Part shown: positions 18,870 to 40,873 of the stretch, one piece after another
Numbering within the stretch: the stretch's first letter is position 1
Layout: each line of letters begins with the position of its first letter
NCBI GenBank assembly: GCA_036971615.1
Contig: JAYKKR010000005.1
Location: 558,001 to 622,000 of the forward strand
Source of the DNA: Amyloporia xantha
Lineage: Eukaryota > Basidiomycota > Agaricomycetes > Polyporales > Adustoporiaceae
Length of the DNA: 64,000 nt
Direction: 5' to 3'
Notes under the pieces: generated by a model
Databases searched by the model: none
What the model was told of the DNA's origin: nothing
Seen by the model: the letters and a program-made list of their open reading frames with translations, nothing else
Position numbers and translations under genes: made by a program

Positions 18870-19227
18870 ATCCACCGTCGATCACTGTAGCTCATCATAT
18901 ATAGATTGCAGCACAGCCTTGTATGAAATAGCGTATAGCATATCTACTGCCGAAGTAGCACCCCCTTTTGAATTGACAAGAAGTTGCCCTCTGTCCCTCG
19001 CAGTATCGCAGACTGTCATGAACCCAATTCCGCCGTCTGCTATTACGGCTAGTCCTCCATTATGATTGATCACAAGGAAACTTCGACAAGATACTGAGAT
19101 TGTAATACAGGAAATCATACAATACATATATCGAGACGTGGAATGCAGCCGATCACGAATAAAATCACTGGCCACAATAGATCTCCAACTAAATTGGCGG
19201 AACACCGACCCTGAGCCCTTGTAATAC
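18870..19227. other. Intergenic between convergent genes
   Basis: About 360 bp between two 3' ends. Open frames here on both strands have no splice, codon or homology support. Confidence 0.4.
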
Positions 19228-20362
19228 CTATTTCTCCATCAGTAGTGGAATATGGTCGGAATTATAAAGACTGACGTTAAAACATTCCTCCATTGCAGTC
19301 TTGAGTGACATATATCCATTGCAAGCAGATTCCAAGTGCGTGATTTCCAGTAGGTCTACGCGAATGCCATGGGTGAGAGATGCTAACGCATTCATAGCTG
19401 CCTAGATGAAGGACTCAGCATTATGATTGTAGAAGCCATATACTTCAAATACCTTGACTGCATCCAGGAGAGCACGAGCTTCCACCTCCTGAGAAACTAA
19501 AAGCATCCGCAGACGCGCAAGTTCACGAATTTCATACTCCAGCTCTTCATCTCGCTCACCAGCCGACGATTGGCTGATTTCCTTCGCATCAAGCATAAGG
19601 CCGGCAGCTTCTGACAAAATTTCGGCTCTCGCGCTCTGATGTTCCTCTAACAGAGCGAGGATTTCGCGAATCTTGCTGATCTGCCATTGCAGTGCCGACC
19701 GAGGAACTGTCATTGGTAGAAGAAACTGAAGCATCCAATGAGATGAAATAGTGGAAACGGTAAAAGAATATCGGCTCACCTCATCAACTTGAGCTGAGCG
19801 TCTCAACACAGGTTTTAACTGGCGCCAAGCCATATCAAGAGATGCAATACTAATGGTTATGTAGTCGAAGGACTTCGTGGAGAGCCGATCACCATCTCCG
19901 ACAGAGAGGACACCACAATTCTAAAATAGCTCAGTGATGGATATATAGCTGGTGTTAACACCACATACCAAGCGAAACTGAGTGCAAAGTTGATGTTCGT
20001 ACTTCCGAAGGGAAACAATGCCCTCACTGATGAAAGCGACACCCTTCTCCGCCTTAATGCCTCTCAGCTTCTGAAGCAAATCGTCGGGGAGGCGGGGGCG
20101 TTCGAGTGATGCAAGAATCTGCGGGACATTCAACGGCCGGAGAGCCCTGCGTGACAAAAAACGATAAGCGGTACGACGGCACATACAGACCTAGCCATAC
20201 TCGTCGGTCTGAGACTGTAATTGCTCAATGCGGCCGTAGATTTCGCGATCTACCCATACGGCCAACTCTGAATTCGCACAAGTTTTGAGTAGGGGACGCG
20301 AGCAGAGAAAGACAGAACTCACCAATCACACGCGAGGCTAAGTCAGCGGGATCTTGGGCCAT
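19228..20362 (-). CDS. Helical (coiled-coil-like) protein, copy 3 (inverted-pair member A)
   Basis: Six exons from the ATG at 20362: 20362-20323, 20267-20201, 20146-19969, 19920-19780, 19680 to about 19452, and a last exon from about 19399 to 19228. Exons 1-4 have the same lengths (40, 67, 178, 141 nt) as in the gene at 40575, and all phases match. It begins MAQDPADLASRVIELAVWVD, contains NVPQILASLERPRLPDDLLQ, and later the coiled stretch ISKIREILALLEEHQSARAE. The last exon (GIRVDLLEITHLESACNGYM) is recognisably related to that of copy 4. No membrane segment is seen. The 5' part (from 20064 upward) matches copy 4, while the rest is strongly diverged. Function unknown; it shares a promoter with an F-box gene. 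Confidence 0.68.
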
Positions 20363-22180
20363 TTCGAATAGAAGAAGTGATGTGTTTTCGAGGTTTTGTG
20401 AGCAAGATTAGGGGAGCGTCGCAAGTCACGACAGGGGTCGATGTTGAGAGCACCAGTCGATGGGATAACCGAGTACGCAGACATCTTGACGGACCTATAT
20501 GTATGGGCAGCCTGCTGACACGACAATAGAGTGCCTTCGGAGTCGGAAGGAAACATCGGAAAGAGACAAGATAAACGAAGACCGACATTTTGCGGAGAGT
20601 GCAGAAAGTCGGACTGTGAAAGATACTGATGCGGACTAAGGAAGCTCTAGGGGCGCACAAAGGAGAAGTCGGAGAGAAGCTCACCTCCAAAGTCGCTGTT
20701 TCAAAAAAAATGCGGAGTAGCACACTGGCAGAACTTGCGCACAGTGGCACAATGTCTGCACAAATTGGAGGTGGTTGCTTAGTGTCCCAACAGTCCGGTA
20801 GAATAAGAGGAAGACAATCTAACTAAGCGACACAATGTCAGTACTATAGAATGTGGACTCTTTGGGACGTCTTCGACCCGTACCGTGACTGATCATGATC
20901 GATCGCGGGGCTAGCACACCAAATTAGGCCTTGCTTTCAACCCGCATCGAGTCCGCTACCAGTACTGACAGTGGCACTGGTCGCCAGTAAAGACCACAAT
21001 GCCCGCCGACTGTCTTTCGTTCGATGATTTTGGCAAGGTCCGACACACTTACATTACCCACCGCTGGCGCGCCATTGTCCGTCTGGATTCCTGTATGGAG
21101 TTCACCCGACGCCTCCGAGCCGGTACAGTGAGCCGCAGCAAGGTATAAATACAGGTCTGGTGAGCTCATGGTTTCACTACTATATTTTCATTTTTATCCC
21201 GACATTATCCATGTCTTCCAGTCCTCGGAAGAAACCCAAGCGGTCTCATAGACGCCCGCCTGCTACGCCGATTCGTAAAGATGTCATCCAATCTCTCCCG
21301 TTGGATGTTCTCTACGAGGCAAGTAATAAGTATTTTAATTCAAACCCGCGAATCTCACGATGTGTGTCTTCTCGCATCCAGATATTCAATAACCTCCAAC
21401 CAGCAGACCTGCTCGCGCTCGTTCGCACGAGCAAACCGTTCAGGCAGACACTCATGGTGCGCTCCGCGCTGCCGCTATGGCGCCGCTCACGTCAAAATGC
21501 CGGTCTTCCGAACTGCCCGCCATCAATGAGCGAGCCACTGTACGCTAGTCTCGTCTTCGATGACCTTTGCTCTGTTTGCCATGCAGAAGGGGTCGGCCCA
21601 GATGGTTTGATATGGGAGTTCAAAGTCCGGTACTGCTCAGGGTGCCGAGGAAGAATGTGCGCCATATGCCCTCCCGTTTATTCAGAGTACAGAAGAACTA
21701 ACGTTGAGCTTGTAGGCTGGTCATGGCCGATCCCTTACAACAGCTCCCGCAAGGCGACTATCTCGCCCAGACGCAGGCATCGCAGATCCTCCCTTCTATT
21801 CAAAGTAAGTCGGTGTTTGTTTATTTTCGCATGCGAGCGTGTTACTCATGTACACCGATTCAGATGGAACTATCTTTCATCTACCTGATGTCGACAACTT
21901 GAAGAATGACCTTGAAAGTCATCCGTCACCACTCAGTCGCTGTGACATTCTGGTAGTGCGAGAGATCCTGACAAGACAGGTTTCGGAGGTATGCCCTGGT
22001 TACAGTTGTCACCCACACTACGTGAAGCCGACCACACTTGATCTAGCACGCCACCTTGGGCCGAGCTTGGTCTCTTGCTGAAGCGCAGCGCCGGAAAGAA
22101 ATTATACAGCGCAGGGTGTCTTCGTGAGTGTCTTCCATACCCGTCACCGTCGTCCCTCTGACTTCTTGCTGTCTTTCTGG
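20064..22180 (+). repeat. Inverted-repeat arm A, 2.1 kb
   Basis: This stretch is the reverse complement of 38759-40873. Matching positions sum to 60937 up to about 21414 and to 60939 beyond, so a single 2-bp indel is the only length difference. Every open frame I compared inside the arms translates identically except across that indel. It covers the 5' part of the helical gene, the shared promoter and the 5' exons of the F-box gene. Similarity drops sharply at both edges into diverged paralogue sequence. Confidence 0.9.
20363..21210. promoter_or_regulatory. Shared bidirectional promoter, arm A
   Basis: 848 bp between the start codons of the divergently transcribed helical gene and F-box gene. 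The same sequence recurs inverted at 39727-40574. No named element is visible. The layout implies co-regulation of the two genes, and the match means both pairs should respond to the same signals. Confidence 0.6.
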
Positions 22181-23404
22181 CGCAGCATGGCCGAGCGCTT
22201 GAAGAATATGGGGTACAAAGATGACGTTCTTTTTCTGGGCATAGAGAACAGGAAGTTGCTGGATCATCCTCTGGCAAATAAGGCGGAGGAGTTGACAGAT
22301 CAAGGTGTGTTGTCATGCTTGCCGTGGAAACGGTTTCCCATTGATGAGCAAATCAATAACAGGGTGGAAACTGATACAATCCGTCATTATTAAATGGATA
22401 TCACGGAGAACAAACCTTCGCCTTAGGTGGACTTCCCGCGAGCTATGTCTTATGCGGCTGAAAGCCCTTGATGGCGCGCTGTCGCAATACCGCTCGACAG
22501 TGTCACCGATGACTTTGTTGCCTCAAGCCGTCGACTTAATCACCATGCCGGAAATCAAAGCGATAGTTGGTATATCGGACACAGTCATGATCACTTTGCA
22601 TGCCTTCATCAAACTGTTACCCGATCTCGTTTCGCGCTGGACATCTACGTTTCGAACACAGTTAGAAACAATCGCAGTCTGCGAATCCCTGCCCTCGAGT
22701 CGATTGGAGCTGGCTCAAGCTGTCTTCAGGTGCAAAAAATGCAATGCCGTTCAGGTATGGCCTTTCATCCTTGGTCACCCATGCAGGATGTATGCGATGG
22801 AAAACTGGTTTTCGACCCTGGGGGGTCTGCCTCCTTTCGACGGTAATCTACCAAGCTTTGCAGGTTCAATCTTTGATAATGCAGTGCTCATCTACTATCG
22901 AGGCCGCCAGCCTATGTCATCATCTCTATTTGAGTTCTGCGGAGATAAAGCGCGCGCAGTTATAAAGGCGTGTGATAGGCGAGCAGAGATAGCGACCACG
23001 GCACAGCTAGATGTGTTGGATCTACGACTATCATGCCGCATGTGTAGCACGAACACGGAACGACGACTCGTTATGGGGTGGAGATCAGCGGTATGTCTTC
23101 GGTCTTTTCGCTCATGCAGTTGTTCTCACGGTCTATGCAGATCGTCCACTCCCTTTCAAAGCATAAGTCAATGCGGGCTGAAGATCTGGCATGGGAGAAG
23201 GTGGACTCAAATACTGAATCTAGGGTTAAAGCGGCGGAGTCTAGGCGGCGGCATCTCTCTCGCCAGATCTACGACCACACATGTTTCTGGACCTGTTCCC
23301 TATGTATAGTTGGTGCAACGATGGACGCAACCAAGGATCAAGTGGAGGCTCATCTCCGGGATAAGTTCAGTAATTTCAATCAGAATCTCATGCGTAGTCG
23401 CTGA
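21211..23404 (+). CDS. F-box protein, intact copy A
   Basis: The ATG at 21211 gives MSSSPRKKPKRSHRRPP, a basic tail, then the F-box SLPLDVLYEIFNNLQPADLL (the first intron, with a GC donor gcaagt, falls inside it) and ALVRTSKPFRQTLMVRSALP. This is the standard Agaricomycete F-box opening, including a CPPSMSEPLYASLVFD-type segment. A Cys cluster (LCSVCH, CSGCRGRMC) follows, then helical C-terminal regions with VFRCKKCNAVQVWPF and HTCFWTCSLC. About eight exons join in phase to TGA at 23404. F-box proteins bind Skp1 and bring substrates to SCF ubiquitin ligases; the C-terminal half would select the substrate. An in-frame ATG at 21160 is an alternative start. The 5' half lies in the inverted-repeat arm; the 3' half is a diverged paralogue of copy B. 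Confidence 0.82.
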
Positions 23405-24393
23405 TAGCCGTTTAGTCACGGTATTCGAAATCCAACTGAGGCTGATTGTCATCGTAGACTGGACTCACTCCCATTTGTCAGCCAACCCGTGCTGCTGCGA
23501 TCTGGTCGACGTTCAGAGTAGTGCATCACAGTATAGAGAGCAAAGTCTGTGGCCTTATCGTGTTTATCGTGTCGTGTTGTACGTTGTAGTTCATTCTGGT
23601 GTCGATAATTTCATGTCATGTTACGGCGTGGGTCCCCGTGTGCGATAGCTTGTTCACAATAAAGACCGATATGGTATACAATAGCTAGGAAACTACTTTG
23701 CTTATGATCACCGGCCAGTCTGAAGCATAAAACCCTGGTCTATTGGTACCTTGTAGCGCACGGCCTCAGGTTCCCATCAGTGTTACTAGTATGTATGTCT
23801 AACGTTGCTCGCTCGCTTCAAATACCGATGTTACTGCGTGTCGTTTACTTCGTGATTCTACGATATGAATATAATTTCCGCTTCAATAAGATTCTATTGG
23901 CCTGAGTGATTTCTGATGAGACGAACAACTTCCCGCTGTCCTGCATCAAGTCGCACCACACGCCTCAGGTTCTGTAATCGCCATGAGCCAGTCTAGGGCT
24001 TCGAAGGTAATGTTGAGGATTCCTTGCAGGATAGGCGAGGCGAATATTTAAAGATAACACCCCACGAGGTGATGGCGGACGTGTTGCAAACGTTCCTTCT
24101 ACTATTCTGAAGTTGTCACTACCAGACTCGCCTCATGTCAGAAAGCTGATGTATACTTACTATCTGGGCCGTGGCGTCTGGTAAGTTTTGTCTCGTCTGG
24201 GAAGAACTAGTCTTCAGATGACGAGCATATGCACGTGTCGCAATTAATTCATGGATCACTAGCACGTATACGCACCAGGAGCTGAGATCAATTGGAGCTC
24301 CGCCAGGGTTTTCTCAGCCAGTGTACTTATCACGAACTTGTTGGCAACGCTGACCACGCTGACCACCCACTGACTGCGGCATTGTATACCCCA
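23405..24393. other. Intergenic, no gene seen
   Basis: Nearly 1 kb without a credible coding exon on either strand. No repeat or element end was recognised. Confidence 0.4.
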
Positions 24394-24996
24394 TGCCCGA
24401 GGACGACCCGCTCACTCAGAACATTGCTCAGGACAGTCTTGAGCCACTTCCGCCATCATTGTGAGTGAGGGGTCAAATACGGTGTATGGAATCTATTGAG
24501 GTCGTCGGCGTCTAGATATCAATACGAGGCAGAAGCATTTGACCGACTACTGCAAGTGCGCAACGTCTGGCGTGCTGAGGTCAAGGGAATTTCTCGAGAC
24601 TGCGAGCGAGCTGAGGCGACAGGACTCTACTCCTTGACTTCTGAAAGCAATCTTCATAGTAAGCAAGAACATTTTTATCGATCTTGTAGTGGATAGGAGC
24701 TAACCGTAACATCTGAAGCGCTTTCAAACTGTGAGCTTCGACAAATCATCACCAATCTGGCCCATGAATTGCAGCAGCGTGATGAAAGACTCCTGCGCAT
24801 GAGTGCCGCATTATCAACATCCGAGCTCTTATATGGAGAGTATCGTGGTCTCTGGATAGCCACTTGGGCTACTGAGAGAGCTGTAGAGGAGCGTGTCTAT
24901 GAGCGGCTTTCCCGCCAAGCACAGAAAGCACGCCCAAGTTCTGACACTCATCCTGTATCCCTATACTATTGTACACGGCCTCATCCATCACAGTGA
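24394..24996 (+). CDS. Small helical protein
   Basis: Three exons from the ATG at 24394 (MPEDDPLTQNIAQDSLEPL) join in phase through introns of normal size (gtgagt...ctag and gtaagc...gaag). The product of about 160 residues is mostly helical: YQYEAEAFDRLLQVRNVWRA, LRQIITNLAHELQQRDERLL and ATERAVEERVYERLSRQAQ. No membrane segment or known domain is visible. The acidic start and amphipathic helices resemble the other helical genes in this window in style only. The 3' end may contain a further intron after SRQAQ, so the last 20 residues are uncertain. Confidence 0.5.
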
Positions 24997-25364
24997 CATG
25001 GAAAATAGGTTTGATATCGCTTTCACATCGCTGTCGATATTGCTTTTGATATTGCTAAAAAATCACACTACCTACTGCTCTCGCTGATATCCAGATATCG
25101 AATCAATTGTATATACACCGTTCTCCCCACCTCCATCCATGTCACGTAACGAGTTCAATAGATTTAAATGTGCTGCGGATTAGCATATGTCAGTTCTGTC
25201 CCTAAACCCCACACATGTGGATCAAGCTGATTCAAGCATCGCCACATACAGGGGTGGTCCCTCCAGGAGTGGTGAATGCGAGTGGAGTGAACCAGGTGTG
25301 AATATGATCTGAGCCGGGTGTGTCTGGAGCGGGTGATACAGGTATGATTTATGTAAGGTAGTGA

Positions 25365-25884
25365 TCATGAGCGAGCGAACGAGACGGACTCCATGAGGTA
25401 GATTGCAGCTTTCGATCGCATGACAGTGGAGGCATAATCATGATCAGCCTCGAAGAGCTAAGAACATCGAAGAACAGGCGACGTACCGTGGATAAGCTAC
25501 TCAGTGTAGATCTGAATACTCTCCGCAGATGCTTCGACCGAGGACTGCAAAAGTGACAGGGGTTAGGCGGTGGCGTTTCAAATGTCAATGTAATCATAAG
25601 GAGCTATCGGCGTGTTCAGTCATCGCAGAGGAACTTCGTAAAACGACAAGATACGGACTTAAACTAACCTCGCTGTGCGTCATGTAGGCTCATCACAGTA
25701 CTTACCGCTCTATATGTCCGTTGTTGCGCGCCCGCTCTGTTCGCTTTCCGGCATCAAGCGGCGAGTAATCAGGATGACCACCATTGTGACTGCGCCAAGA
25801 CGCGTGATCATCGGAACCCTCCGATGAAGTATGCATGCTCGCAAATGCTCCTGGACATGGTAATTTCCTTCGACAGGCTTTCAT
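25365..25884 (-). CDS. Unrecognised small gene, divergent from heh1
   Basis: The first exon from the ATG at 25884 reads MKACRRKLPCPG and later GGHPDYSPLDAGKRTERAR, ending near a gtaagt donor. Further open pieces read SSVEASAESIQIYTE and ADHDYASTVMRSKAAIYLM, ending FARS and a stop at 25365. Composition looks coding, but I could not place every splice site in phase. The gene is not recognised. Its start lies about 120 bp from the heh1 start, so the two probably share a promoter. Confidence 0.35.
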
Positions 25885-26002
25885 TGTCTACGAACAAGTA
25901 CCCGGTTGGCCATGGATTGTCTTTGTGGTCCTGAGGTTCTGGTGTTATGGCTGAACGGAACTCTCACCTCACGCTCGTCGACACCTACGCTTCTTCCTCA
26001 CG

Positions 26003-28229
26003 ATGCCGCGAATGACCACCGCCGAAGTCATCGCAAGGGGCGAATATCTCCAGGCTGACTTCGATCCGTCTACCCTGACCATTGCTCAGCTGCTAGGATT
26101 ACTCAACTATCATGATATTCAGTATCCCACCCGACATCACAAAGACGATCTTGTCCGTCTTTTCAACACGAAAATCAAGACCAAGTCTAATCAAGCTGAG
26201 CAGGGACGGCTGCAGAGGAAGAAAAGCCAGCCTGGGGACAGTGGAAACAAAGTCGGTGTTACCGATGTGTCGGTTAATGAAACTAGGGAGGTACGCCTGT
26301 GAAACTTGCTGCTATGGACAGCTGCGTAATCCTTCCCGCAGGGGCGAAAAGCCGTCCCTAAGGACTCAGGTTGGGAATACAACAATGTATTCCAATCTGG
26401 TGCGCCGCATGTACCTTTCGTTCAGCAATCCTCCTCCCGCCCCCGTATTAGTGGTGCCCCCCCTCCTTCCGCGAAGACACGCAAGCCGATATCCCCTCAG
26501 CACGCATCTAAGAAAGGCAAGGACACTGAGCTACGAAAGGACCAACTGGGAACCAAGACACGGGAGATTCCAGCGGGTGATACGATAGATAGGCAAGCCA
26601 CCATCGTGTCGACAAGCATTACCAGAGGGAGGCGAGTCACACGGGAAAGCCACCCGCCCAAAGGAGGTCCTTCTTTGCTAGTCCTTTTTTTCATCGCGCT
26701 TCTAGCTCTATTCGGCGCCGGAGTCTTGTACGATTACAAGCACACATCGGCACAGATTGGATTCTGTGACGCCGGTATGGCGACCAATGTGATTCTCGAT
26801 GATTACAGGGCTCGTTCTGCGGCTATTGATAGCTGTAACAGGGAGAACAAGGTAATATCATCATCTGTTGATTCTACAGCGTCCGTCCCTTCCCCAGGAT
26901 TTGCCTCTACACAAACGGCTTCAGGAGAACACTCTCAATGGGAGTATGATGTGTCGGCTGGTCTCGGTGTGGAAGTATGCCCGCCACCTCCCTTTATCCC
27001 CTTATCCCACCTCCAGACTTGCACGCCATGTCCTCGGCATGCAATTTGTACACCATCAACAATGACCTGTGAGCACGGATACATTCTCTATCCACACCCC
27101 TGGCTCCACTTCATTCCAGTGCCTGGCACCCCGTCTTTGTCATCCCCCTTCTCAACGACGTCGACGACCTTCATACAACCTGGGAACATGTCATCTCCCA
27201 TTACAGATACTCCAGAGTTGATCTACTTCGTGATTGCACTTGTACTAGATGGTATGCCCGGAGTGGGTCCTATCGCATTCCCACCTCGTTGCGTAGAAGA
27301 CCCACGTCGCAGTCTTCATATCAGCACTTTGGGTGAAGCGGTGAGGGTCATGCTTGCTGCCGAACGCGGGAGGCGCTTGTGTGAAGGTGTGCCTACGAGC
27401 GAACCGGAAGGAGACGAGGAGAATGAGGTGAAACAATGGGGCGTCGAGATAGCAAAGCTCAGAGAGAAGCTCCGGGATGACCTGAGAAGCGAGGTGAACA
27501 TGCTGCAGGATTAGTCCCCTATTTTGAAATCTCCTAATGGCGAGTGTATATGCAGGCGGAGCTAGTACTCGCGTTAGATGATATATTCGATGAAGTTATT
27601 CAACAGCTGGTGCGAGCGGGTAGTGTGTTCATGGGCGAGGACGCACGGTAAGAGGAACTCTTCTGTGTAAAGCTTGCACTGCACTAAATTCCGACGTCGT
27701 AGGGGCAAGCAGTACATTGCGTGCAAGACGTCATCCATGAGCTGGTTCTGTTCTATCAAAGTCAAAGTACGAGATACTTGGTACAAATGGAAAATCTCTA
27801 TCATCGGTATGTAGATCATTCTGCCATGTATTCTTATATCATTGACTTCCCATCACATGCGGTTGTATTCTAGGTAGTATCCTTTTCATACCGTGCATCT
27901 TGGCATTTAGGATCCGGCGGGCGAAGAAAATGGCTGAGAAGAAGCGTGTTGCCGTTCTCATTCAAATCGTACTTGATCTTCTCCGGAACCAGGAATTTTC
28001 CCACCACATGGACCCGGTGATGGTGCCACAGCCGTACTTATCTTCCTTACAGCTTCGTGACCTAGTTCTGGAGGATGAACACTCTTTGAGCGTCCGTCAG
28101 CGATTGTGGAAGTACGTAGAACACGTTGTGGAAGGGAACGCGAACATTCGCACGAATCTTGAGGAAGTCGAAGGTGGGGACGAGTTAAGAGTATGGCGCT
28201 GGGTAGGTAGCGCCGGTGTGAGTTCGTGA
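26003..28229 (+). CDS. heh1: Heh1/Src1-type inner nuclear membrane protein (LEM-like/HeH plus MSC domain)
   Basis: The N-terminus (residues 18-55) is a helix-extension-helix: DFDPSTLTIAQLLGLLNYHD then KDDLVRLFN, the LEM-like fold that binds DNA or chromatin. A basic, Pro-rich linker follows, then a membrane helix (PSLLVLFFIALLALFGAGVL). The lumenal part has the Cys pattern CTPCPRHAICTPSTMTCEHGY. After a second membrane segment (about 27890) comes the winged-helix Man1-Src1 C-terminal domain with SHHMDPVMVPQPYLSSLQLRD, GNANIRTNLEEVEGGDELR and a final VWRWVGSAG. Five or more exons join in phase, including donors at 26289 (gtacgc) and about 27494 (gtgaac). The family tethers chromatin and rDNA to the nuclear envelope. 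This is the clearest conserved single-copy gene in the window. Confidence 0.88.
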
Positions 28230-29024
28230 GGGGCTGCTGAAATGATAGAGCACCAACCTACCACTACTTTCTTTCTTGATCCCAATAACAGTCAGTACCG
28301 ACTTGACTAAAATGTATGTATGGACGTTCGAATATGATGACAACCCACTCACAATATTGCGCATTATCTTCAAGGAAATATATCCTGTGCATAGTTACTT
28401 CACTTTTGCAGCAATGTTTTGAACTGGCGGCGAAACAGTTCAGTGAATTATGTCATTTCTTGCACGCAACTCACAGCCAATTCGATTGCTGGCATGCTGA
28501 AATAATGCAGTATTCGGAACCTCGAAGCAGACAAAGGAAGTTTGATCACTCGGACACAATATATTCGTCGGGAAAGATTCCTTTGTTCCATTTTCGAGAC
28601 CGAGTCAGTCGCGTGGCTCATGAGCCACTCGGTCTCTGGATCAAGAGTGGACTGCTGGGAACTTACTTATAACCATCGAGTATCCAACCTGGCCAATATC
28701 CTGACGTCCATCCCATGCGCGGAATGACAATTTTAACTTCTTGCTGGTCTCTCCTGAAACGGCTCTATATCCCTTGGTCTGCCGATGGTGGCTCTGTACT
28801 CAATGCGTGCGTGCTATTAAACAATCTTGGCCGTATGCTCATAGTTCAGTTGATGCATATAGGAAATACAAGATAATGTTTTGTGCTGATGTATACGATT
28901 TTGAGATGCGGGGTCAACAGCAGGAAAGGGTCACCAACAGCACCGGCACTCGTCCTGCAACAGTAGCATTCACACGACTTCCGTCGAGGCTTTGTGGGTT
29001 GACGGAGGCTGTCATTGTGAGGCG
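28230..29024. other. Intergenic, no firm gene
   Basis: About 800 bp. Open frames such as that at 28316-28672 show no domain or confirmed splice structure. Confidence 0.35.
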
Positions 29025-29520
29025 ATGGAGATCTCATGCAATCTATGTTCTTCAGATGTCATATCGGCGCAATACTCACTTGATCGACAAAACTCCTGTG
29101 ACATCGTCTTATTGACCGAAGAGACGAAAATCACAGCTTTTGAGGTGACTGCTTGTTACGTTCACTGAGCCGAGTACTTCTACTAATCTTTATTTGTATA
29201 TATAGGATAGCCTTACTGTTCGGTGGAGCACGAAGGAGCGACACTACCAGGCGGTACTCACCGGCGTGGAGGACTTTTGGGATTTAGTCAAATGCTTTTC
29301 TGTTAGCAGCGTCGAAGCTGAGGCGTGTCGCCGCCTTGCCGCAGAGCAAGCCAATGACTTGCAATATCATCTGCCAGTGCTCCTAGCGCAATTTCTCGAT
29401 GCGGGCGAACCAATGTTGAAAGGTGTATTGCTTTGGCGTGCTGCGCTTTCCTTGTTGGCGAGTACCACGGTACTAATGATTATTTTCCTCGTCCAGAGGC
29501 ACGAAGCGCATGTTTTGTAA
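29025..29520 (+). CDS. Small tail-anchored helical protein
   Basis: The ATG at 29025 opens MEISCNLCSSDVISAQYSL. An intron (gtgact to tatatag) joins TKITAFE to DSLTVRWSTKERHYQAVL in phase. A helix-rich stretch (VSSVEAEACRRLAAEQANDL) precedes one hydrophobic segment, LLWRAALSLLASTTVLMIIF, only eight residues from the C-terminus. That is the layout of a tail-anchored protein with its body in the cytosol. Upstream exons may exist. No family is recognised. With the genes at 17408 and 53307 it is one of three small helical proteins here that end in a membrane segment. Confidence 0.5.
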
Positions 29521-30120
29521 CTTGATAATTAGCTTTTGTTCGTAAGTGTATGCTCGTAATAGATTACTAGAAGTTGGTCATGAGTTGTCGCAACGAATGT
29601 CTATATATTTGTACGCAGCGTGCCGTGTGTCTTGGCCGGTGTAAAGAAAAAAGCGCGTGATGTCATAGCCACCGCGTGTACACTCTCACTCACTACCCTC
29701 TGCAAATCACTTTTTCGTGGCGAAGGCAACATTAAGTCCGCATGGCTCTACGTGCGACTGAATCATTCGATGACCTGCCGAGAGTCAAGGCCCGCCGAGC
29801 TGGTATGGAAATAGTATGGGACGATCTTCCGACCACTCTAGCGATACCTACCCCGCCGCGTGGCACAGCTGATCACCAATACATACAACACATGAGACAC
29901 TCAGACACAGAGGTAGTGAGCCGGCTTTATTTCACGTGAGCTCATCAGATAAATCTTAAGGTTCTGATAGCAGCCGGGAAGTAGTCCGGACATCCCTCAG
30001 CGAGAGTCCGAAGTTCAAGCTAGTGGCGTGCCAGCCTGCGATATGCAAGCCCGCGACATGCGAACCTACCAACCTCAGTTGTATAAAGTAAGTGAAACAG
30101 AGAAAGGTTACGTCGACTAA
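29521..30120. other. Intergenic, no gene seen
   Basis: 600 bp with short open frames only. One boundary of the neighbouring CACTA-type element may fall here, but I could not identify inverted ends. Confidence 0.35.
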
Positions 30121-30459
30121 ATGAGATCTGGACTGAAGGTTTCGGGACGTAAATGGCGCAAGACTCGTGGAGAGCCGAAGTCATTTGGTTGGTTTGAGTC
30201 CACAGGTTCCTCCGCTCTAGAGGACCCTCCCAGTATTCCTCCTGACAACGCCCCTCGACCTGGCGATGTTTATGTCCACCATATTGAGAGAGACGGTATC
30301 AAGATGCACCAGGCGTGGCTACGAGTTGCGCGCATCCAGTCACGTGTAGATACATGGGTTCAGATCAAGGAGGGCCACGAAATATTTGATGCTGATGGGT
30401 GCCGAAGGAAATTCTCATTAAGTATAAAGGAGGGACGACCTATCTTCAAAAAGGCGTAA
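30121..30459 (+). CDS. Hypothetical protein beside a CACTA transposase
   Basis: An unspliced frame of 112 codons. It starts basic (MRSGLKVSGRKWRKTRGEP), then reads APRPGDVYVHHIERDGIKMH and AWLRVARIQSRVDTWVQIKE with GHEIFD. Proteins with a similar RPGDVYVH and WVQIKEGH pattern occur in many basidiomycete genomes without a known role. It converges on the transposase gene and ends about 120 bp from it. It could be a second gene of the same element, which is inference from position only. Confidence 0.45.
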   Translation: MRSGLKVSGRKWRKTRGEPKSFGWFESTGSSALEDPPSIPPDNAPRPGDVYVHHIERDGIKMHQAWLRVARIQSRVDTWVQIKEGHEIFDADGCRRKFSLSIKEGRPIFKKA

Positions 30460-30578
30460 TTGTTCTTCGAGGAAGAACGAATACATACGCAGGATGTCTC
30501 AGTACAACTAACCAGATTATACAACTGCTGCTCTCGATGAGTCGTCCCCCGAAGGCTAATAGTAGAGAAGATAAAATT

Positions 30579-33500
30579 TCAGGCCTGTACATCGGACATC
30601 AATAACATGCGCAAATAATAGGCTGGCGGAAGACTTACTCTATCTAGTGAGAGGACTATCCTGTACCTCCGATCTCTCCTGTAAGGACAAGAAGCAAAGT
30701 GCGAGATTAGATCAGTGGCTTTGATGACCACCAGGCGGTGTGGTTCGCGGTGATAGAGGGCGCACTGCAAATGCGTGAATCGGCGATAGACGTCCTGCTG
30801 CGCTTCCTCCGCGCTCAGAGTAGGGAAGATCCGGACAGCAAGGAAGAATTCGGTGATCAAATTTGCAGTAGGACCCGGACGGCTATGAATGAAGATTTCT
30901 TCAATCTGGCCAGGTTCAATTGCACCGGCATATCGGAAGAGGACGAGAGCATCTTTGACAGACTTCATCGCCTTCTTGAACATCACTCCGTCGTGCCTTA
31001 GTTGAAAACATGAGCGCGCAGACGGGTCGACGCTTCGAGAATTACTGGAGGCTCTGATGGACTCCGGCGCACGACACGATACATATACCAATGATGGGGA
31101 ATCATGGTTGAGACGATCTATCAGTCGTTGATAGATGTCAGAAGACGGGTCTAGCTGTACCCCGGTACCTTTTTCCATTGTCGGCTGCTCGTTCCTGGCC
31201 TCCGGTTCACCGAGCGAGATAATGTCATTCATCAAGGTACCTCGATAGCCGGGAGCAAATTTTTCAAGCGCAATATTCTTTAGCTGCTCCAACATTTCAG
31301 GCAAACCGCGGAGGTGTAGTAGATGTCGCAAATTAGCCGCTCTGCAGAACGCTGTGATCATTGAAAGTTCAACTTCGCCTATGCATTTTCAGCACATAAT
31401 ATAACACGCAAGGTGATCACATACCAGCCTTGCTATTGGTCTTGATTCGTTGAAGGGCCCCGTTTAATCGTTCGAATGGGAACGCCCACCATCCATGCAC
31501 AGGACCGAACGATCTGAGACATTCAGGAAGGTGAAGCGATAGGTGCTGATTTGGAACGATGTCGTCTTTCGTCAGTGAGTATATACTGACCAGTGTTCGT
31601 AAATAGTAGGAGAAGCTCTGGCCAACGATCGAGATCCGCTCTTCTCCGGTAGAACGCATCGTCGCTGTTTTGATAGCGACTACTAAGGCGATGAAATTAT
31701 TGAGTACCGCTTGGTAGAAACCAGGGGGGCTCTCAAATGAAAACTCTTGAACTAGAGTAATCACCATATTCACAGTGCATACGGTTCTCCATTGATCTGC
31801 TGTGAGCTTGCCATGCCCGGGACTACCGAAATTCCGAGGAGGACGACTCATCCATGATGGGATGTGTGTCTCCTTCATGTCAGCCCAAACCTTCTCAAGC
31901 AGTTCATGAGTGAACACCGGTGGATAGTTCTTCTTCTTCTCTAGCCCAGCTAGGTCTACCGCTAAGTCGTTCGTCGGCTCTGGATGCGTAGGAGGCGTCA
32001 CAATCTGGATTCCGGGATGTGCTCGGTACTACGCACTATTAGGGACAATATTATAAAGCATTGGAGTAGAGTACATACCCAGTCCATGAGAGCTTTCACG
32101 AAATCTTTTTTATAAGGGCCATCAGCGTTGACATGATTGAAACGGGCAATAGCGATTATATAGCCAAGGCGACTGGATTGTAACGCGCTTACGTTTCCTT
32201 GACGGATAGCACTGATAATGCGCTCTAGTTCCGCAGCCTGTTGATGTCTGTCATGAGGTTTCATCTGCCTATCGTGATGTCGGCGCTTCTGTGCATTATC
32301 CAGATCCCATATGTCCCGAAAGTGATGTTGAATATCGCCTAGGAACAGATTATGCATACTGTCAAGAACAGCGAAGCGAGTGGGGTCCCAGTACGGGAGA
32401 CGAAGCAATTCTGACCAACGGACACGATGAATCTCCCAGTGCTGCTCTCTGGCTTTCTCGGATGGGCAGTCTCTCCATTGCTCCGCAAGCGATTTGTGCT
32501 CCGCCCATGTCCGACGCGGCCAAGATGAGATGTCGAAATTCAAGATCAAGTTTTTTAACAGTAGACAGAAAGAGCAAAATAAGTGCGACCTAGTTCCCGC
32601 AAACCCACCTACCTTACGAAGAGCTTGAACATCGGCGACGAGAGGAATCACAGCACAGCGGACACGCCGCCCCATAGGATACAAAACGGTTCTGGTGAAG
32701 AACACGCCTGGATTCCAAAGCTTCAGGAGTTCATCGATGAGCGGCCTGAGGAAGTTGTTGATTTCCTGTAGACTCGGTTCCTTCGGGCCCGGTATGATAC
32801 CAACAATATAAACGTTCTCGATCCTGTAGCGCAAATCTGGCGGAAGATTAAGGCAAACCATATAGATAGCTCCGAGTGAGATATGCTTTCCCGATATTTT
32901 ATTGCCGAATGGATTGAACCAGTCCACGAAGAGACTGAATACCAAACGGCCCTCGCCGAGTGGACATTCAGAGAACAGCCGTCCATCCGGGCCCCTGAAC
33001 TCGCGAAGCACAGTGCCATCCCATATATCTTTTAGATCTGCCGTGATAGAACGAGTTCTCCTCCATTTCTTGTCCAAGAGATTCTCCATGTTGGGTAGCG
33101 ACAGCATGCGAGCGAGCCAGGTTGTCATAGGCTGATAGAAGAACGGTCGGGACGGTACAGCCTCTCCAGCCTCTCGTTTGACAAGTAGTTCAGTGTTGCA
33201 GGGTAGGCTATCAGCCGTCTCCTTGAAGCAGCAAATGGAAGGATATGTAACACGATTGTCAGGGTTGATAACGGGAGGATAGATGCTTGAGCATTTGGGA
33301 CAACATGCAAACTTGACTAGATGCGGATCGAGTTTGAAAAATGTATACGCGGAGCGTAGGGTACGAGGCCAATTCTTCGTATCGAAGAATGAGTTTAGCC
33401 CGTTGTCGGCACTGGCATTATCGGTATTGCGGCGCATGGACCAGCAAGTGTATACAACAATGATTTGGATAGCAAGCAAGAGAAAATCACAGCCCGTTCG

Positions 33501-34446
33501 CGATAACCCTGCCAACAAATTCAGGACGACGACGACAAATGTGCAGCCGAGTATAGGACCAGATTGACCAATAATGGACTCTTTCATCTCGAAAAATTCT
33601 TCTGCAAGACGCAGTATAATAAGAACAACCACTTTGCTCAAGCGCGGCTGTCTACATACCTGTGCTCTGGACTGCGGCGTTGTCCATGTTGGAAGAAATC
33701 TCCGAGAGAAGAGCTGCCCGACCTTTTCGGGTGTCCCATTGTTCTGCAATGGCGCGGTCTAGTATTGCCTGATATTCTTGGATTTCACGAATTAATGATT
33801 TCCTCGCGGCGGCGACAGCCTCTGATCCATCGCTGGGAATTCTATCAAGAATTTCTATCATGTTTTGAACCCAATCCATATGCCTTATGAAGGCTTCTGT
33901 GTCGCCTTCCGTGGTCCATTTGAGAGGGGGAACGGAGGAAGAGGCTGAGGGCTCCGTAAAAACGAGATTGGGGGAGATTGTGAATGTCCGACGCCGCTCA
34001 TGAAAATCTCGCCGATAGACTGCAATCTCCATCATGCGAATCGAGGACGCATCCTCAGTGCTCTGTGGGATCTCCGGTTCATGCGTAGGAACGTGTGAAT
34101 CAGAAACAATGCCGTTGGGAGGTACCCGGGGTGTCGGAGAAGATTCTCCTCGTGGCGTCTCATAGGGATAATGGGAACGAGAGTTAATCGCAGGATCGTT
34201 CTCAACAGAGGTAGGGGAGAGTATAGCGCTCAGAACGGCACCGTCCAACATCTGCTGGTCTTGATCTATTGCCATTTCATGCAGATGGACTTGTTCATCC
34301 TCTTGATGGCGAGCAAAAACACTTCCCGATACGTAGACTCCAACAGCCATCTGTCCGGTGGCACGATCCAGAGCATTTTTCGTAATGCATTTGTGAACAG
34401 TGCATTTACAACGCTTCCACGCAGCTCGTCTATCCATGCCTGACAA
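30579..34446 (-). CDS. CACTA (EnSpm-type) Tnp2-like transposase
   Basis: The first exon from the ATG at 34446 has a Cys-rich start (RCKCTVHKC) and a long disordered region. Then follow a hydrophobic stretch; CCPKCSSIYPP; WDGTVLREFRGPDGRLF; LVFSLFVDWFNPFGNKISGK with the catalytic-region Asp; LPPDLRYRIENVYIVGIIPG; VRCAVIPLVADVQALRKVGG; HLFCSFCLL; and WDPTRFAVLDSMHNLFLGD. These are the conserved blocks of fungal Tnp2-type transposases. The C-terminal part has LSLHLPECLRSFGPVHGWW and FPFERLNGALQRIKTNSK, resembling DUF4218-like regions. Introns at about 33660-33633, 32065-32026 and 31420-31370 keep phase, and I see no premature stop, so the gene may be functional. The last exon edge near 30720 is uncertain. 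Element ends not found. Confidence 0.82.
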
Positions 34447-34918
34447 GACTCTTCAGTGGCATCCAAGCGGCATCGGATAATATCCATCCCGAATGACTTG
34501 CCTGAACATTGACCGGGCTTGAATAGTGATAGTCAAAAGACAGGTTTTTGCCGATACACACAATGGAATGATGCTCTTGGAAATGAATTTTCGGGACGAA
34601 GGAACGTTTACTTCCCTAGGTCTGAGCCTGAGGCGTAACGATAGATCGCGAATAGATCGTACTGTTTCCGGGTCTGATCGCGAGCAATGTAAGTACATCC
34701 TTTGCCACATCACGTGCAATCTCAGAGTGCACGATTATAGCACGAATCTCGCCAGGCAGCCCAGGCTCGTCAATGGCATCAGCAGGCACGCTGTGACACT
34801 AATAGCATACATAGAATTTCATACAATGGATACACAATACGCCCAGTAAACCAGATAGTTCTTTTCACCTCCGTTACTCCCACTACTCAGACATCCCATG
34901 CCGGCAGTCCCGAACCCA
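34447..34918. other. Intergenic upstream of the CACTA transposase
   Basis: About 470 bp. It should contain the transposase promoter and possibly one element end. No matching inverted repeat was identified. Confidence 0.35.
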
Positions 34919-35975
34919 TCAGTTTGCGTGTGAACGATACGCAGACTGCGACGCAGTTTCCGTCGTAGTGGTGGTGATGGTGGTGGTCTTGCTCCTTGCC
35001 GGAAGGACAGCATTCTCAGTGAAGCCAGCACCTGCCGCCGTGGTCGTGGTCGTAGTCGTCATGATGACTTGTGCCGGGGACGAACTACCTGGAAGCCCAG
35101 CACTAGCAGTCTTAGTTGTCGTTGTGGTCGTCGTATCCATATCAGTAGCGGCGATCGAAGTGGTGGTGGTTACCAGTACAGTGCCGCTCAGAACAGGGAA
35201 CGGCGCGGCCGTGTCGGTATTGCCACCATCCGAGGGGAGAAGTAGTCCGTTGAGATGGTCGGTCGAGACCGAGGGAGCAGCTGGTTTATCAAGCTGGTCT
35301 GGCTTTCCAGAATCGACCATAGGAGTATCGGAAGCATTGATATCCACAGCTGAAGAGTTAGAACCCGCATAAGATGTGGTCCCCGAAACATGATGAGAAA
35401 CAGAAGAAGCGTCAAGCCCAAGACCGGATGCCAAAGCTGAAGCAAGTGTTGTGGGGGATGAAGCTGGGGAAACAATAGAAACGGTCATCGCAGCTGGCCG
35501 AGCCTGAGGAGTCTCTGCTAAATTATGAAACCCGTCGTATCCGGTACGAGACAGATCTGGACAATTATCCGCACCGTGGATAGCATAGCCCTGCTCCCTG
35601 CTGGTCATGTTCATCGTCAAATATAGCTCGTCCGAATCGACATCGGCACAGAACCTGCCAGAGTTGTCCATAGCGGTGTCCGAGTCATCCATATTAACAG
35701 TCTCGCACGGAATGGAGTGGGTCTGAAGTAAGAGTATCAATTTTAACACTCGTCTCAAACCACAGTCCACATACCGGCGAGGACACACAGATAGGCGTGT
35801 CGGCCCAACCTGAATGTTCTAGGGGCGATCGTGGAGTGAACAGTCCCGACATCGCATCGTCAGATGTGGTCGTCAGTTTGTTATGTACTCGAGAACGCTT
35901 GTTTGAATACTCCGGATCTGGAGATAATCGGTGCTTGCCATCTCGCTGAAGAGGAGAGGAAGAACGAATCTGCAT
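34919..35975 (-). CDS. Thr/Ser-rich hypothetical protein
   Basis: Two exons join in phase: 35975-35775 (MQIRSSSPLQRDGKHRLSPD, with a basic NKRSRVHNK) and 35722-34919 (starting THSIPCETVNMDDSD). The C-terminal half is low-complexity, with five runs of five to seven Thr separated by Ala/Gly/Pro-rich spacers, encoded by ACC/ACG/ACT tracts. No membrane or signal segment is seen. The N-terminal KRSR stretch suggests a nuclear location. Not recognised. It may be a rapidly evolving regulatory or structural protein. Confidence 0.5.
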
Positions 35976-36849
35976 ATTGATCCTGTGATATGAGGATATG
36001 GGAGGTGGGCGAATTAGAGTCTGCGTGCGTTCGTCTTTTATACTGTTGAAGGAGACATTACTCCTCCGGACGATAACTTCAACAATGATCCAATCACCTT
36101 TGTTCCATGACAGCATAATCAATGTTGGACAAAACACTTTGAAGCTGGGACTGGGTGCATTGTCAGCTACGGAGTGCATTGTGGTGACGATGGTAATGAG
36201 CCTCCTTTTGTATATACTTCGGGAAAGCTTGTCAGCCGCATTGAGCATGCTCCGCGATCGTACACGCAATCGCTGTCTCTTGATCGCTTACCGTAGACAA
36301 TGGGACGCTCGATTGGTTCGTACCGCGCCATAATGGAATAGCCCATGCATGAAGAAGAGGCCAACACAGCTAGTTGCAACGCACGCCTTATATCCTGCCT
36401 GAATCGTACGTGTGTGGTCAGTTCATATAGAGAGATCGTGTCGACGGGCTAAATATCCCAAGAGGTTGATGAGGAATATGGGACAAGTCATCTTGATCGA
36501 GGTTTCCAAACCATCCGCATCACTTAGTATCATCGATAGTCTTGAATGTATCGCTTCACTTTGTTCTGTGTGCCCAAAATAGATCATCAGACTCTGTCTC
36601 AGATTGAATGTTAGAGGGGATAGAGTGACCTGAATTCAAGAACATTTCGGGCTATCTCCAATGAAGGCCGACGCTAGCGAGTCACGACTGGCTCAGGATA
36701 TCAGGAGGTCGTTTTGGCAGAGATCCTGCTATGGGTTCACCTAGTAAAGCCAGTACCGATCGCAGATGAGCAGATAGGACTCCTAACGACTGTCCTCAAA
36801 ATGGTCTTTGGGACATGGGTCACTTTGAGCATATTACTGAAGAGTATAT
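35976..36849. other. Intergenic, no gene seen
   Basis: Promoter side of the Thr-rich gene, followed by about 600 bp without coding support. Confidence 0.35.
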
Positions 36850-37038
36850 ACCAGAGTAGTAACAGTAACTCTCGCCTCAGTATTACTGCCGATCGCGGTG
36901 TTTTCTATAAATGGGATGCCTTTGCTGTGGCCGGACTGATTGCCTCATATAGTAAGGTCCGGGTGCGCATGGTCCATATCTGCCGAATAAGACCGCTGAA
37001 TAGTAACAGTGGACGACTGTTACTGTTACTACTCTGGT
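36850..37038. mobile_element. 189-bp inverted-repeat element (MITE-like)
   Basis: The ends are exact inverted copies over 20 bp: ACCAGAGTAGTAACAGTAAC at 36850 and its reverse complement ending at 37038. A further AGTAACAGT copy lies inside the right end. A 12-bp direct repeat, attactgaagag, lies outside both ends (about 36835-36846 and 37048-37059). No coding capacity. It could be a small non-autonomous transposon or a hairpin. Confidence 0.65.
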
Positions 37039-37480
37039 CGCCCCTCATTACTGAAGAGGTAGCAAAATACGAGAATGATCGGATCATGACGGTCCAGTAT
37101 GGTACGCGTACGAATGACGCCACCTTTGTCGGAAGGGAGTCCTTTGGGCAGATACTCTGCCAATGAACAGTTTATGGCCACTTCGACAAGGCCCGGTATT
37201 ACCGCTCTTGCTTGTTACCGAAATAGTACACGGAAAAGCGGAAACGCAATAAATAGTCTTCAATATCACTACGATACATTGATCTACACGGGAATCACAT
37301 AGTAGGAATAGGAGAGAGAATTCGTCACGATCCATTCCCCCTCTTGCTCGGTGTACTCCATCTCACCGCGCTGAAGTTGGTGGCATAGGAGAAGAACGGG
37401 CATGCAAGTGAACGGAGGTGAATCAAGCCTTAGGGAGAGGTCGCTTGCTGTCACATCTACAATGCTATGACTAATAATAA
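37039..37480. other. Intergenic, no gene seen
   Basis: About 440 bp between the inverted-repeat element and the 3' end of F-box copy B. No coding exon supported. Confidence 0.4.
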
Positions 37481-39726
37481 TCAGGGTGAACCGCAATCTA
37501 TGAAAAGCAGAAAGATACTCAACTGATGGCGCAGATGTAATCTTAATTCAGCCCTCGTCGCATCTTCCATTAGACCGCAACCACAGTGGGAACAAGTCCA
37601 AAAGCACACGTGATCGTGCATATCACGAGATGACTTTCTACCGATCGACTCGACCGTCTTGACCTTGAATTTCATTTCTGAGTCGACTGGCCTCCAAACG
37701 ATGTCCTCCGTGGGTAAGGACAGGTGCTCTGTGAGTGAGTGGATAACCTGGCATTGTCATGAGGACAGATTTTGGCAGTAGGACCTTGGGCTTAAGACGC
37801 ACCGCTGCTCTCCATCCCATAACAAATGCTCGTCTTCCGCCTTGACCACATATTCCACACGCCAGCCTTTCATCTAAAGCATCCAATTGTGCCGCCGTCG
37901 TAAGTTCAGGCCGCTTACCACAGGCCTTTATGACTGTACGTGCGGTATCGCCACAGAACTGTAACACAGAGGACGACCATGGTTGTCGACCGTGATAGTG
38001 CACGAGGACAGCGCTGTCGTAAATGGACCCTTCTATACAAGGCAGATTCCCGTCGTAGGGAGGACTACCGCCACGGGTTGCATCCCAGTTGGCCTGCGCA
38101 GGATGACAACAAGGATGAGCCAGCACACCAGGCCAGAATAGAATCGCGCTGCAGTGAGTGCACCGAAACACGACCTGTGCAAGCTCCAATGGGTTGGGGG
38201 GTGTGAAACGGGCGGAGCGCCGGCGGGCCAATGGAGCGTGTGACAGTGGAAGTTGAATACGGGATTCTACTTCCTGCTTCATGGCTGCCTGCCATCGAGA
38301 TATCAAATCAGGTAGCATCCGTGAGAATGCATCCACGGTAATAATGACACTTGGGGAGAGGTCCACAATCGCTTTGACCTCCGGATATGCAGTGAGGTCT
38401 ACAGGATGGGGCAAAATGTCGGTCGATGGTACCGTCGAACGATACCTCCAAATGGCTTCGTCTAGCCTCTTCAAGCGTACATAGCAGAACCTGCGAGCTG
38501 TCCATTTGAGGCGAAGGTCCTTCCTCTGGTCCATCCACTTCAACAAAGCAGGCTTCAAGGCACGCCAGTCTGCAGCCGGCGAACAAACTCTAGTCGGAAA
38601 GCGTTTACAGGGGGCGAGAGTTCAACCCACTCACTGTAATCATTCAAATCTTCAGCCTTATTGCCAAGTGGATGTTCCACTAGCTTCAGGTTTCTGAGAC
38701 CAAGGTAGAGAACGTCTGTCTCGTAACCCATCTCCTTCAAGCGCTCGGCCATGCTGCACCAGAAAGACAGCAAGAAGTCAGAGGGACGACGGTGACGGGT
38801 ATGGAAGACACTCACGAAGACACCCTGCGCTGTATAATTTCTTTCCGGCGCTGCGCTTCAGCAAGAGACCAAGCTCGGCCCAAGGTGGCGTGCTAGATCA
38901 AGTGTGGTCGGCTTCACGTAGTGTGGGTGACAACTGTAACCAGGGCATACCTCCGAAACCTGTCTTGTCAGGATCTCTCGCACTACCAGAATGTCACAGC
39001 GACTGAGTGGTGACGGATGACTTTCAAGGTCATTCTTCAAGTTGTCGACATCAGGTAGATGAAAGATAGTTCCATCTGAATCGGTGTACATGAGTAACAC
39101 GCTCGCATGCGAAAATAAACAAACACCGACTTACTTTGAATAGAAGGGAGGATCTGCGATGCCTGCGTCTGGGCGAGATAGTCGCCTTGCGGGAGCTGTT
39201 GTAAGGGATCGGCCATGACCAGCCTACAAGCTCAACGTTAGTTCTTCTGTACTCTGAATAAACGGGAGGGCATATGGCGCACATTCTTCCTCGGCACCCT
39301 GAGCAGTACCGGACTTTGAACTCCCATATCAAACCATCTGGGCCGACCCCTTCTGCATGGCAAACAGAGCAAAGGTCATCGAAGACGAGACTAGCGTACA
39401 GTGGCTCGCTCATTGATGGCGGGCAGTTCGGAAGACCGGCATTTTGACGTGAGCGGCGCCATAGCGGCAGCGCGGAGCGCACCATGAGTGTCTGCCTGAA
39501 CGGTTTGCTCGTGCGAACGAGCGAGCAGGTCTGCTGGTTGGAGGTTATTGAATATCTGGATGCGAGAAGACACACATCGTGAGATTCGCGGGTTTGAATT
39601 AAAATACTTATTACTTGCCTCGTAGAGAACATCCAACGGGAGAGATTGGATGACATCTTTACGAATCGGCGTAGCAGGCGGGCGTCTATGAGACCGCTTG
39701 GGTTTCTTCCGAGGACTGGAAGACAT
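37481..39726 (-). pseudogene. F-box protein, copy B, F-box frameshifted
   Basis: Same structure as copy A: ATG at 39726, identical first exons, GC-AG intron inside the F-box. At about 39520-39525 the run that reads ctcgcgctcg in copy A is ctcgctcg here, a 2-bp loss that shifts the frame after QPADLL and should end translation within about 40 residues. Downstream the frame is otherwise kept through all exons: MAERLKEMGYETDVLYLG, LLKWMDQRKDLRLKWTAR, VVFRCTHCSAILFWPGVL, CGICG and HVCFWTCSHC, to a stop at 37481. This half is clearly diverged from copy A. The intact remainder implies the deletion is recent or a sequencing error. If restored, it would be an F-box protein with a different substrate half. 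Confidence 0.75.
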
Positions 39727-40873
39727 GGATAATGTCGGGATAAAAATGAAAATATAGTAGTGAAACCATGAGCTCACCAGACCTGTATTTATACCTTGCT
39801 GCGGCTCACTGTACCGGCTCGGAGGCGTCGGGTGAACTCCATACAGGAATCCAGACGGACAATGGCGCGCCAGCGGTGGGTAATGTAAGTGTGTCGGACC
39901 TTGCCAAAATCATCGAACGAAAGACAGTCGGCGGGCATTGTGGTCTTTACTGGCGACCAGTGCCACTGTCAGTACTGGTAGCGGACTCGATGCGGGTTGA
40001 AAGCAAGGCCTAATTTGGTGTGCTAGCCCCGCGATCGATCATGATCAGTCACGGTACGGGTCGAAGACGTCCCAAAGAGTCCACATTCTATAGTACTGAC
40101 ATTGTGTCGCTTAGTTAGATTGTCTTCCTCTTATTCTACCGGACTGTTGGGACACTAAGCAACCACCTCCAATTTGTGCAGACATTGTGCCACTGTGCGC
40201 AAGTTCTGCCAGTGTGCTACTCCGCATTTTTTTTGAAACAGCGACTTTGGAGGTGAGCTTCTCTCCGACTTCTCCTTTGTGCGCCCCTAGAGCTTCCTTA
40301 GTCCGCATCAGTATCTTTCACAGTCCGACTTTCTGCACTCTCCGCAAAATGTCGGTCTTCGTTTATCTTGTCTCTTTCCGATGTTTCCTTCCGACTCCGA
40401 AGGCACTCTATTGTCGTGTCAGCAGGCTGCCCATACATATAGGTCCGTCAAGATGTCTGCGTACTCGGTTATCCCATCGACTGGTGCTCTCAACATCGAC
40501 CCCTGTCGTGACTTGCGACGCTCCCCTAATCTTGCTCACAAAACCTCGAAAACACATCACTTCTTCTATTCGAAATGGCCCAAGATCCCGCTGACTTAGC
40601 CTCGCGTGTGATTGGTGAGTTCTGTCTTTCTCTGCTCGCGTCCCCTACTCAAAACTTGTGCGAATTCAGAGTTGGCCGTATGGGTAGATCGCGAAATCTA
40701 CGGCCGCATTGAGCAATTACAGTCTCAGACCGACGAGTATGGCTAGGTCTGTATGTGCCGTCGTACCGCTTATCGTTTTTTGTCACGCAGGGCTCTCCGG
40801 CCGTTGAATGTCCCGCAGATTCTTGCATCACTCGAACGCCCCCGCCTCCCCGACGATTTGCTTCAGAAGCTGA
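38759..40873 (-). repeat. Inverted-repeat arm B, 2.1 kb
   Basis: Reverse complement of 20064-22180, 2 bp shorter because of the deletion in the F-box coding region. At the 38758/22181 edge a single C/T difference is followed within about 25 bp by clear divergence. At the 40874/20063 edge divergence is immediate within a coding exon. Confidence 0.9.
39727..40574. promoter_or_regulatory. Shared bidirectional promoter, arm B
   Basis: Inverted copy of the promoter at 20363-21210, between F-box copy B and the helical gene copy 4. Same length as in arm A. Confidence 0.6.

Follow-up and report, generated by a model that had tools for sequence, protein, structure and literature searches.

The window that we analyzed is a 64,000-nucleotide stretch of Amyloporia xantha DNA (C45:558001-622000), and the genome that we searched comprises 46.8 Mb in 60 contigs. 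The window holds two head-to-head gene pairs, A and B, each composed of an F-box gene and a gene for a helical protein, while a third pair, C, lies 4-6 kb to the left of the window. The features within the window, along with a 1-kb inverted repeat, are as follows:

19189..20362, - strand: candidate V-domain ("helical") gene A; 7 exons, 287 aa, introns all GT-AG, no internal stop
20064..22180, + strand: core copy A; promoter region, exons 1-2 and part of exon 3 of the candidate V-domain gene, F-box exons 1-5
20363..21210, no strand: region between the start codons of pair A; 848 bp, putative shared promoter
21211..23404, + strand: F-box gene A; 9 exons, first intron GC-AG, 583 aa
37284..39726, - strand: F-box gene B; the same 9 exons, frameshift in exon 2
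38759..40873, - strand: core copy B; compared with A, no substitution and one 2-bp deletion at 39524
40575..41783, + strand: candidate V-domain ("helical") gene B; 7 exons, sixth intron GC-AG, 293 aa
41788..42811, + strand: I2, 1,024 bp; inverted partner I1 at C45:547480-548503, 2 substitutions

Spliced gene models were made by eye, based on splice signals and comparison among the paralogues. All three pairs share the same exon pattern, and exon phases are kept across the edges of the core. The helical genes have exons of 40, 67, 178, 141, 258-273, 126, and 39-63 bases and encode proteins of 287 aa (A), 293 aa (B), and 288 aa (C). Among the nine exons of the F-box gene, numbers 1-6 and 8 are equal in length in A and C; the proteins are 583 aa (A) and 654 aa (C), with a shorter C-terminus in A. 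The region between the start codons of pair A includes a TATAAA motif on the F-box side (at 21144) and a CATATA motif on the helical side (near 20501). In F-box gene B, the 2-bp deletion, which lies in a CGCG, leads to a stop after 90 codons. Because exons 7-8 of this gene are still open and alignable, the break is either recent or an assembly/consensus error.

The F-box domain was identified in spliced copy C by both PF12937 (26.3 bits, cut-off 24.3) and PF00646 (26.2 bits, cut-off 20.5). Gene A has the same F-box as copy C; in gene B, the frameshift falls within it. A protein search with F-box C as the sole query scored 7,998 candidates, none at E 0.001, and the F-box 3' exon of C retrieved from solved structures two viral DNA-binding protein entries (E 0.07), which we take as chance. 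Within the genome, the F-box 5' part matches 14 other places at 39-54% amino acid identity. Contig C34 carries a related F-box gene in two pieces on the same strand, its 3' part at ~174.4 kb and its 5' part at ~198.3 kb. More than 20 kb separates them and repeats lie close to each, as if an insertion had divided the gene.

The helical genes were harder to classify. The Pfam model of the ALIX V domain (PF13949) matches two of the three helical proteins, but below its cut-off (best E 0.0031); one open frame of copy C scores 16.6 bits (cut-off 30.8), and an open frame of helical copy A has no match to this model. When the PDB was searched with a provisional helical alignment, ALIX came up at E 0.016, followed at lower rank by Mediator subunits and a ribosomal protein; with the corrected alignment, nothing reached E 0.1. 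A genome search with PF13949 yielded one place above cut-off, C17:402600-403735; in the controls for this search, 2 of 14 control genomes had matches and none was above cut-off. Directly upstream of the C17 V domain are BRO1 matches (C17:404028-405565). All four scored BRO1 candidates are at C17 and none elsewhere, making the C17 gene the one full-length Bro1 gene detected in the genome.

The assignment of the helical genes rests on comparison with this C17 gene of the same genome. When built into a profile, the three helical proteins match the modelled C17 protein at 31.5 bits (hmmsearch), against 7.1 bits for the best of 1,000 shuffles, and hhalign aligns the helical profile with the C17 gene over 166 columns (probability 95%, E 3.8e-8). 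Introns of A and B lie at the same column and phase as those of C17 at columns 37, 98, and 176. Copy C shares two of these positions, its second being 5 columns off in a gapped stretch. Two further helical introns are 3 and 10 columns from those of C17, with equal phase, and no C17 intron in the modelled piece corresponds to the first helical intron. For one exon of the C17 model, the acceptor was picked among three options, all of the same phase. Because of the profile match and the shared intron positions and phases, the helical gene is best interpreted as a V-domain-only relative of the Bro1/ALIX/PalA family. Its products differ from a canonical V domain in that they fall below the Pfam cut-off, lack a Bro1 domain, are ~290 aa long, and diverge fast. 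Going forward, we refer to the helical genes as V-domain genes with this understanding.

Both genes of each pair begin within a core that is nearly the same in all three copies. Between A (20064-22180, + strand) and B (40873-38759, - strand), there are no substitutions in 2,115 aligned bases and a single 2-bp indel, which is present in A at 21414-21415 and missing in B. The initial annotation had reported exactly this match and these coordinates. It had also described two mirror-image gene pairs. The A/B mirror pair stands, but a genome search with the core DNA found three places, namely the two arms and C45:551745-553783 on the minus strand (aligned extent of copy C, C45:551685-553783). B and C have the same orientation (direct), A is opposite, and all three pairs lie within ~50 kb. 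Over ~20140-22240 (A coordinates), A and C differ by one substitution in ~2,060 interior bases, at 22020 in F-box intron 4, and by three 1-bp deletions in C, all of which lie between the two start codons. The longest identical runs are 2,115 (A-B), 1,850 (A-C), and 1,848 columns (B-C), compared with at most 79, 76, and 89, respectively, in 2,000 shuffles of the columns each (for A-B, the same columns permuted after gap columns were removed). The 97.5% upper bounds on core divergence are 0.0017 (A-B) and 0.0027 (A-C).

Such near-identity could in principle come from an assembly that collapsed similar sequences and placed one core three times. Some of the differences are indeed of the consensus-error type: each 1-bp deletion in C removes one G from a run of G (4, 2, and 4 in A), and the 2-bp loss in B falls in CGCG. 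However, every core joins different flanks on both sides, at homologous exon positions and phases, and the edges vary between copies, which makes an artefact very improbable. Purifying selection as the force keeping the cores alike is ruled out, as introns and intergenic sequence are identical along with synonymous sites. A mobile core is ruled out by the homologous positions, the kept exon phases, the differing edges, and the restriction to three places genome-wide. The GC contrast between core and flanks (GC 0.516 vs 0.466-0.522; GC3 0.573 vs 0.502-0.535) is too weak for use as a sign of GC-biased conversion.

Beyond the core, the same genes are old and divergent. F-box exons 7-8 share 50% (A-B), 52% (A-C), and 59% (B-C) amino acid identity, and their fourfold sites agree at 23/81, 24/82, and 40/92, respectively. 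Synonymous divergence in these exons is saturated and not computable for A-B and A-C, and dS is 1.2-1.7 for B-C. From exon 3 onward, identical residues in the V-domain proteins number 88/245 for A-B (36%, a value raised by ~27 residues inside the shared block in exon 3), 64/238 for A-C (27%), and 55/238 for B-C (23%). The initial annotation had taken the 3' halves for old paralogues that simple recent duplication could not explain, and both points hold: with F-box 3' synonymous sites saturated or nearly so, simple recent duplication is ruled out. A variant, in which the whole pairs duplicated recently and positive selection then drove very fast 3' divergence, would account for the unlike parts being the 3' halves. 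It is nonetheless almost inconceivable, given the state of the F-box 3' synonymous sites and the constraint seen between B and C (dN 0.30, dN/dS about 0.18-0.25). Flanks diverged to or near saturation, set against the bounds on core divergence, indicate by sequence comparison that the pairs are old and the cores young.

The homogenisation is special to this locus among the three clusters that we compared. The other two pairs of neighbouring F-box genes in this comparison, on contigs C13 and C19, are 64.5 and 58.8% identical and have no identical block; their best 100-column windows are 85 and 77, and their longest runs are 18 and 15. A tblastn search (E 0.5) for the V-domain gene in 10 stretches around F-box-related places found none, and a genome search with the 3' part of V-domain gene C returned A, B, and C alone, although such searches may miss distant relatives since the gene diverges fast, and A itself was found only at E 0.007.

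The edges of the core are sharp. A and B agree from 20064 to 22180, followed by a single mismatch and then divergence from 22205 on; BLAST extends the match on the left to 20054, across four mismatches at 20059-20063. Aligning the arms and plotting identity outward, as the initial annotation had proposed, gave an identical core and roughly 40-65% identity per 100-column window just beyond it, with the drop spanning one to three 20-column bins. The left A-B edge lies 83 bases within the 178-base V-domain exon 3, so that the proposed ending in mid coding exon is correct on this side. The right edge instead falls where F-box exon 6 begins, in the interval from 5 bases ahead of the exon to 19 bases into it. 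The A-C edges are about 7 bases within V-domain exon 3 (~20140) and 55 bases within F-box exon 6 (22240). Thus, the A-B and A-C tracts end at different places on the left (20064 vs ~20140, 76 bases) and on the right (22180-22204 vs 22240, up to 60 bases). Close to the A-C edges, there is a substitution at 22228 on the right and, on the left, a slightly diverged strip in C (20140-20166, 27 bases of intron end and exon start) where 2 substitutions and 1 indel could be traces of layered events. The p-values of a test on such shoulders are given no weight, since the shoulders were chosen with the differences in view and the count included a base past the edge.

Altogether, we consider it likely that recent, probably recurrent interlocus gene conversion has acted on the promoter and 5' exons of three old gene pairs. 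The core is bounded and far more alike between copies than the flanks are, silent and non-coding sites included, which is the pattern by which conversion is recognized. This reading is favoured because silent, intronic, and intergenic sites are identical within the core but at or near saturation beyond it, with homologous positions and kept exon phases. The initial annotation had proposed conversion between inverted arms; conversion is still the best account, but the inversion is not essential, because C, which is direct to B, is homogenised too. The differing ends on each side point to more than one conversion event. Copy A would have been party to both homogenisations, since A shares more sequence with B at the left end and more with C at the right end. 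The ends fall within 90 and 60 bases of each other, with a chance of ~0.008 under a crude model of uniform ends, and this near-coincidence suggests a homology island where conversion recurs.

Under this model, the three divergent F-box/V-domain-only pairs would have been overwritten at their shared promoter and 5' exons, resulting in one common start module in three copies while the 3' exons of both genes stay unlike. Tracts would end at or slightly within the first paralogue-specific exons (V-domain exon 3 and F-box exon 6), which suggests that selection or missing homology halts conversion there. The likely cause is that conversion requires sequence similarity and that its spread into the distinct 3' exons is disfavoured. 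The non-reciprocal nature of the transfer, its recurrence, its direction, and selection at the edges are what we infer from this arrangement, and the outcome would be that SCF adaptors and their V-domain partners come under one shared regulation.

A competing possibility is that one recent episode of templated repair or template switching copied the 2.1-kb core from one pair into the other two. According to a review (PMC3924818), interlocus conversion tracts in yeast are some 50 to several hundred bases long, and conversion takes place chiefly between sequences more than 80% identical, with a low rate below that. By comparison, a 2.1-kb block with sharp ends in ~60%-alike flanks is not what one ordinary conversion event leaves, although short tracts could add up. 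From these yeast tract lengths and this identity threshold, it follows that divergence of the core was either prevented all along or erased by one long repair event, and a single long repair fits the sharp edges about as well as recurrence does. Such a repair perhaps belonged to the same upheaval that left the 1-kb inverted repeat, which is similarly little diverged (2/1,024) and brackets the cluster. On the other hand, the differing A-B and A-C ends on both sides would need at least two tracts, the closeness of those ends would be a coincidence (the same ~0.008 of the crude model), and the slightly diverged strip at the left edge of C suggests layers. Overall, we regard a one-off repair as unlikely.

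The bracketing repeat itself may record a rearrangement. I1 and I2 occur at these two places alone in the genome, on either side of the whole 51-kb cluster. I2 starts 5 bases downstream of the V-domain gene B stop codon, and I1 begins in the last intron of a neighbouring gene, D (intron read by eye), which was found once in a genome search. Staggered-break inversions leave inverted duplicates at both ends of the segment, as the available text on Drosophila describes (PMC5080602), and I1 and I2 resemble these. It is thus plausible that they mark a ~51-kb staggered-break inversion, though compared with the Drosophila cases, the inversion here is a guess from a single genome. An inversion of this size would leave the relative orientation of A, B, and C unchanged.

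Mobile elements and other frames also occur in the window. Pieces 92-99% identical to a Plavaka-type DNA transposon (~4498-12152) occur on several other contigs, and relatives at 68-71% on additional ones; a tnp2-type transposase frame lies between the arms (32001-33758). Also between A and B is an open frame with a Man1-Src1p C-terminal domain (26330-27511). A direct pair at 51558-52483 and 56589-57555 is 65% identical; Pfam gave no match for its two open frames. The Plavaka and tnp2-type transposases, along with many short introns, are in keeping with a fungal genome, and Plavaka elements point to mushroom-forming fungi.

Three near-identical cores in both orientations, joined to different 3' halves, provide the geometry for shufflon-like re-pairing, in which crossovers within the cores swap the F-box and V-domain 3' partners by inversion (A/B or A/C) or by deletion or unequal exchange (B/C). 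As an explanation of the locus, this is quite improbable: the one assembly examined has no other arrangement, crossovers alone do not produce core identity, and the gene with the Man1-Src1p domain would travel along. Combining the two processes, the start modules might serve as an exchange platform, in which conversion keeps them interchangeable and crossovers re-pair 3' halves under one promoter. We think this rather improbable; if true, it would provide a combinatorial repertoire of ubiquitin-ligase adaptor/V-domain pairs that differs between strains.

Homogenisation of divergent gene pairs is already known from the silkmoth chorion cluster. In the available text on that system (PMC4639761), the HcA/HcB pairs are likewise head-to-head, with a common promoter region and a history of gene conversion, and the cluster also includes pseudogenes and an inversion. 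That cluster is an array of 21 eggshell gene pairs, whereas the present locus has three, not all in the same orientation, whose core ends sharply and whose 3' halves are old and dissimilar. The NWD non-self recognition genes of Podospora anserina (PMC1805685, available text) are another fungal family with concerted evolution of one gene part. There, the WD repeats (the specificity part) are exchanged, whereas here the promoter and 5' part are homogenised and the 3' parts stay distinct; the recognition role is that of the Podospora genes. Tigriopus GOT1p1/GOT1p2 have similar high-divergence islands beside converted stretches, although those described in the available text (PMC3728101) are single genes rather than divergent pairs.

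A search of open-access papers found no such fungal locus. As far as this limited search goes, the three-way core with sharply bounded old 3' halves is apparently new. The F-box/V-domain-only pairing is also apparently new within the same limited search, the literature on the V domain, ALIX, and Bro1 lying outside it.

V domains bind YPXL motifs and ubiquitin, and the pairing of an F-box gene with a V-domain gene suggests that the two may act together in ubiquitin-linked sorting or turnover. More broadly, the locus is a tidy natural example of a gene pair that stays uniform in one portion across three loci, with the remainder at saturation or close to it. Because of this contrast, the limits that homology and selection set on conversion would be readable from the edges.
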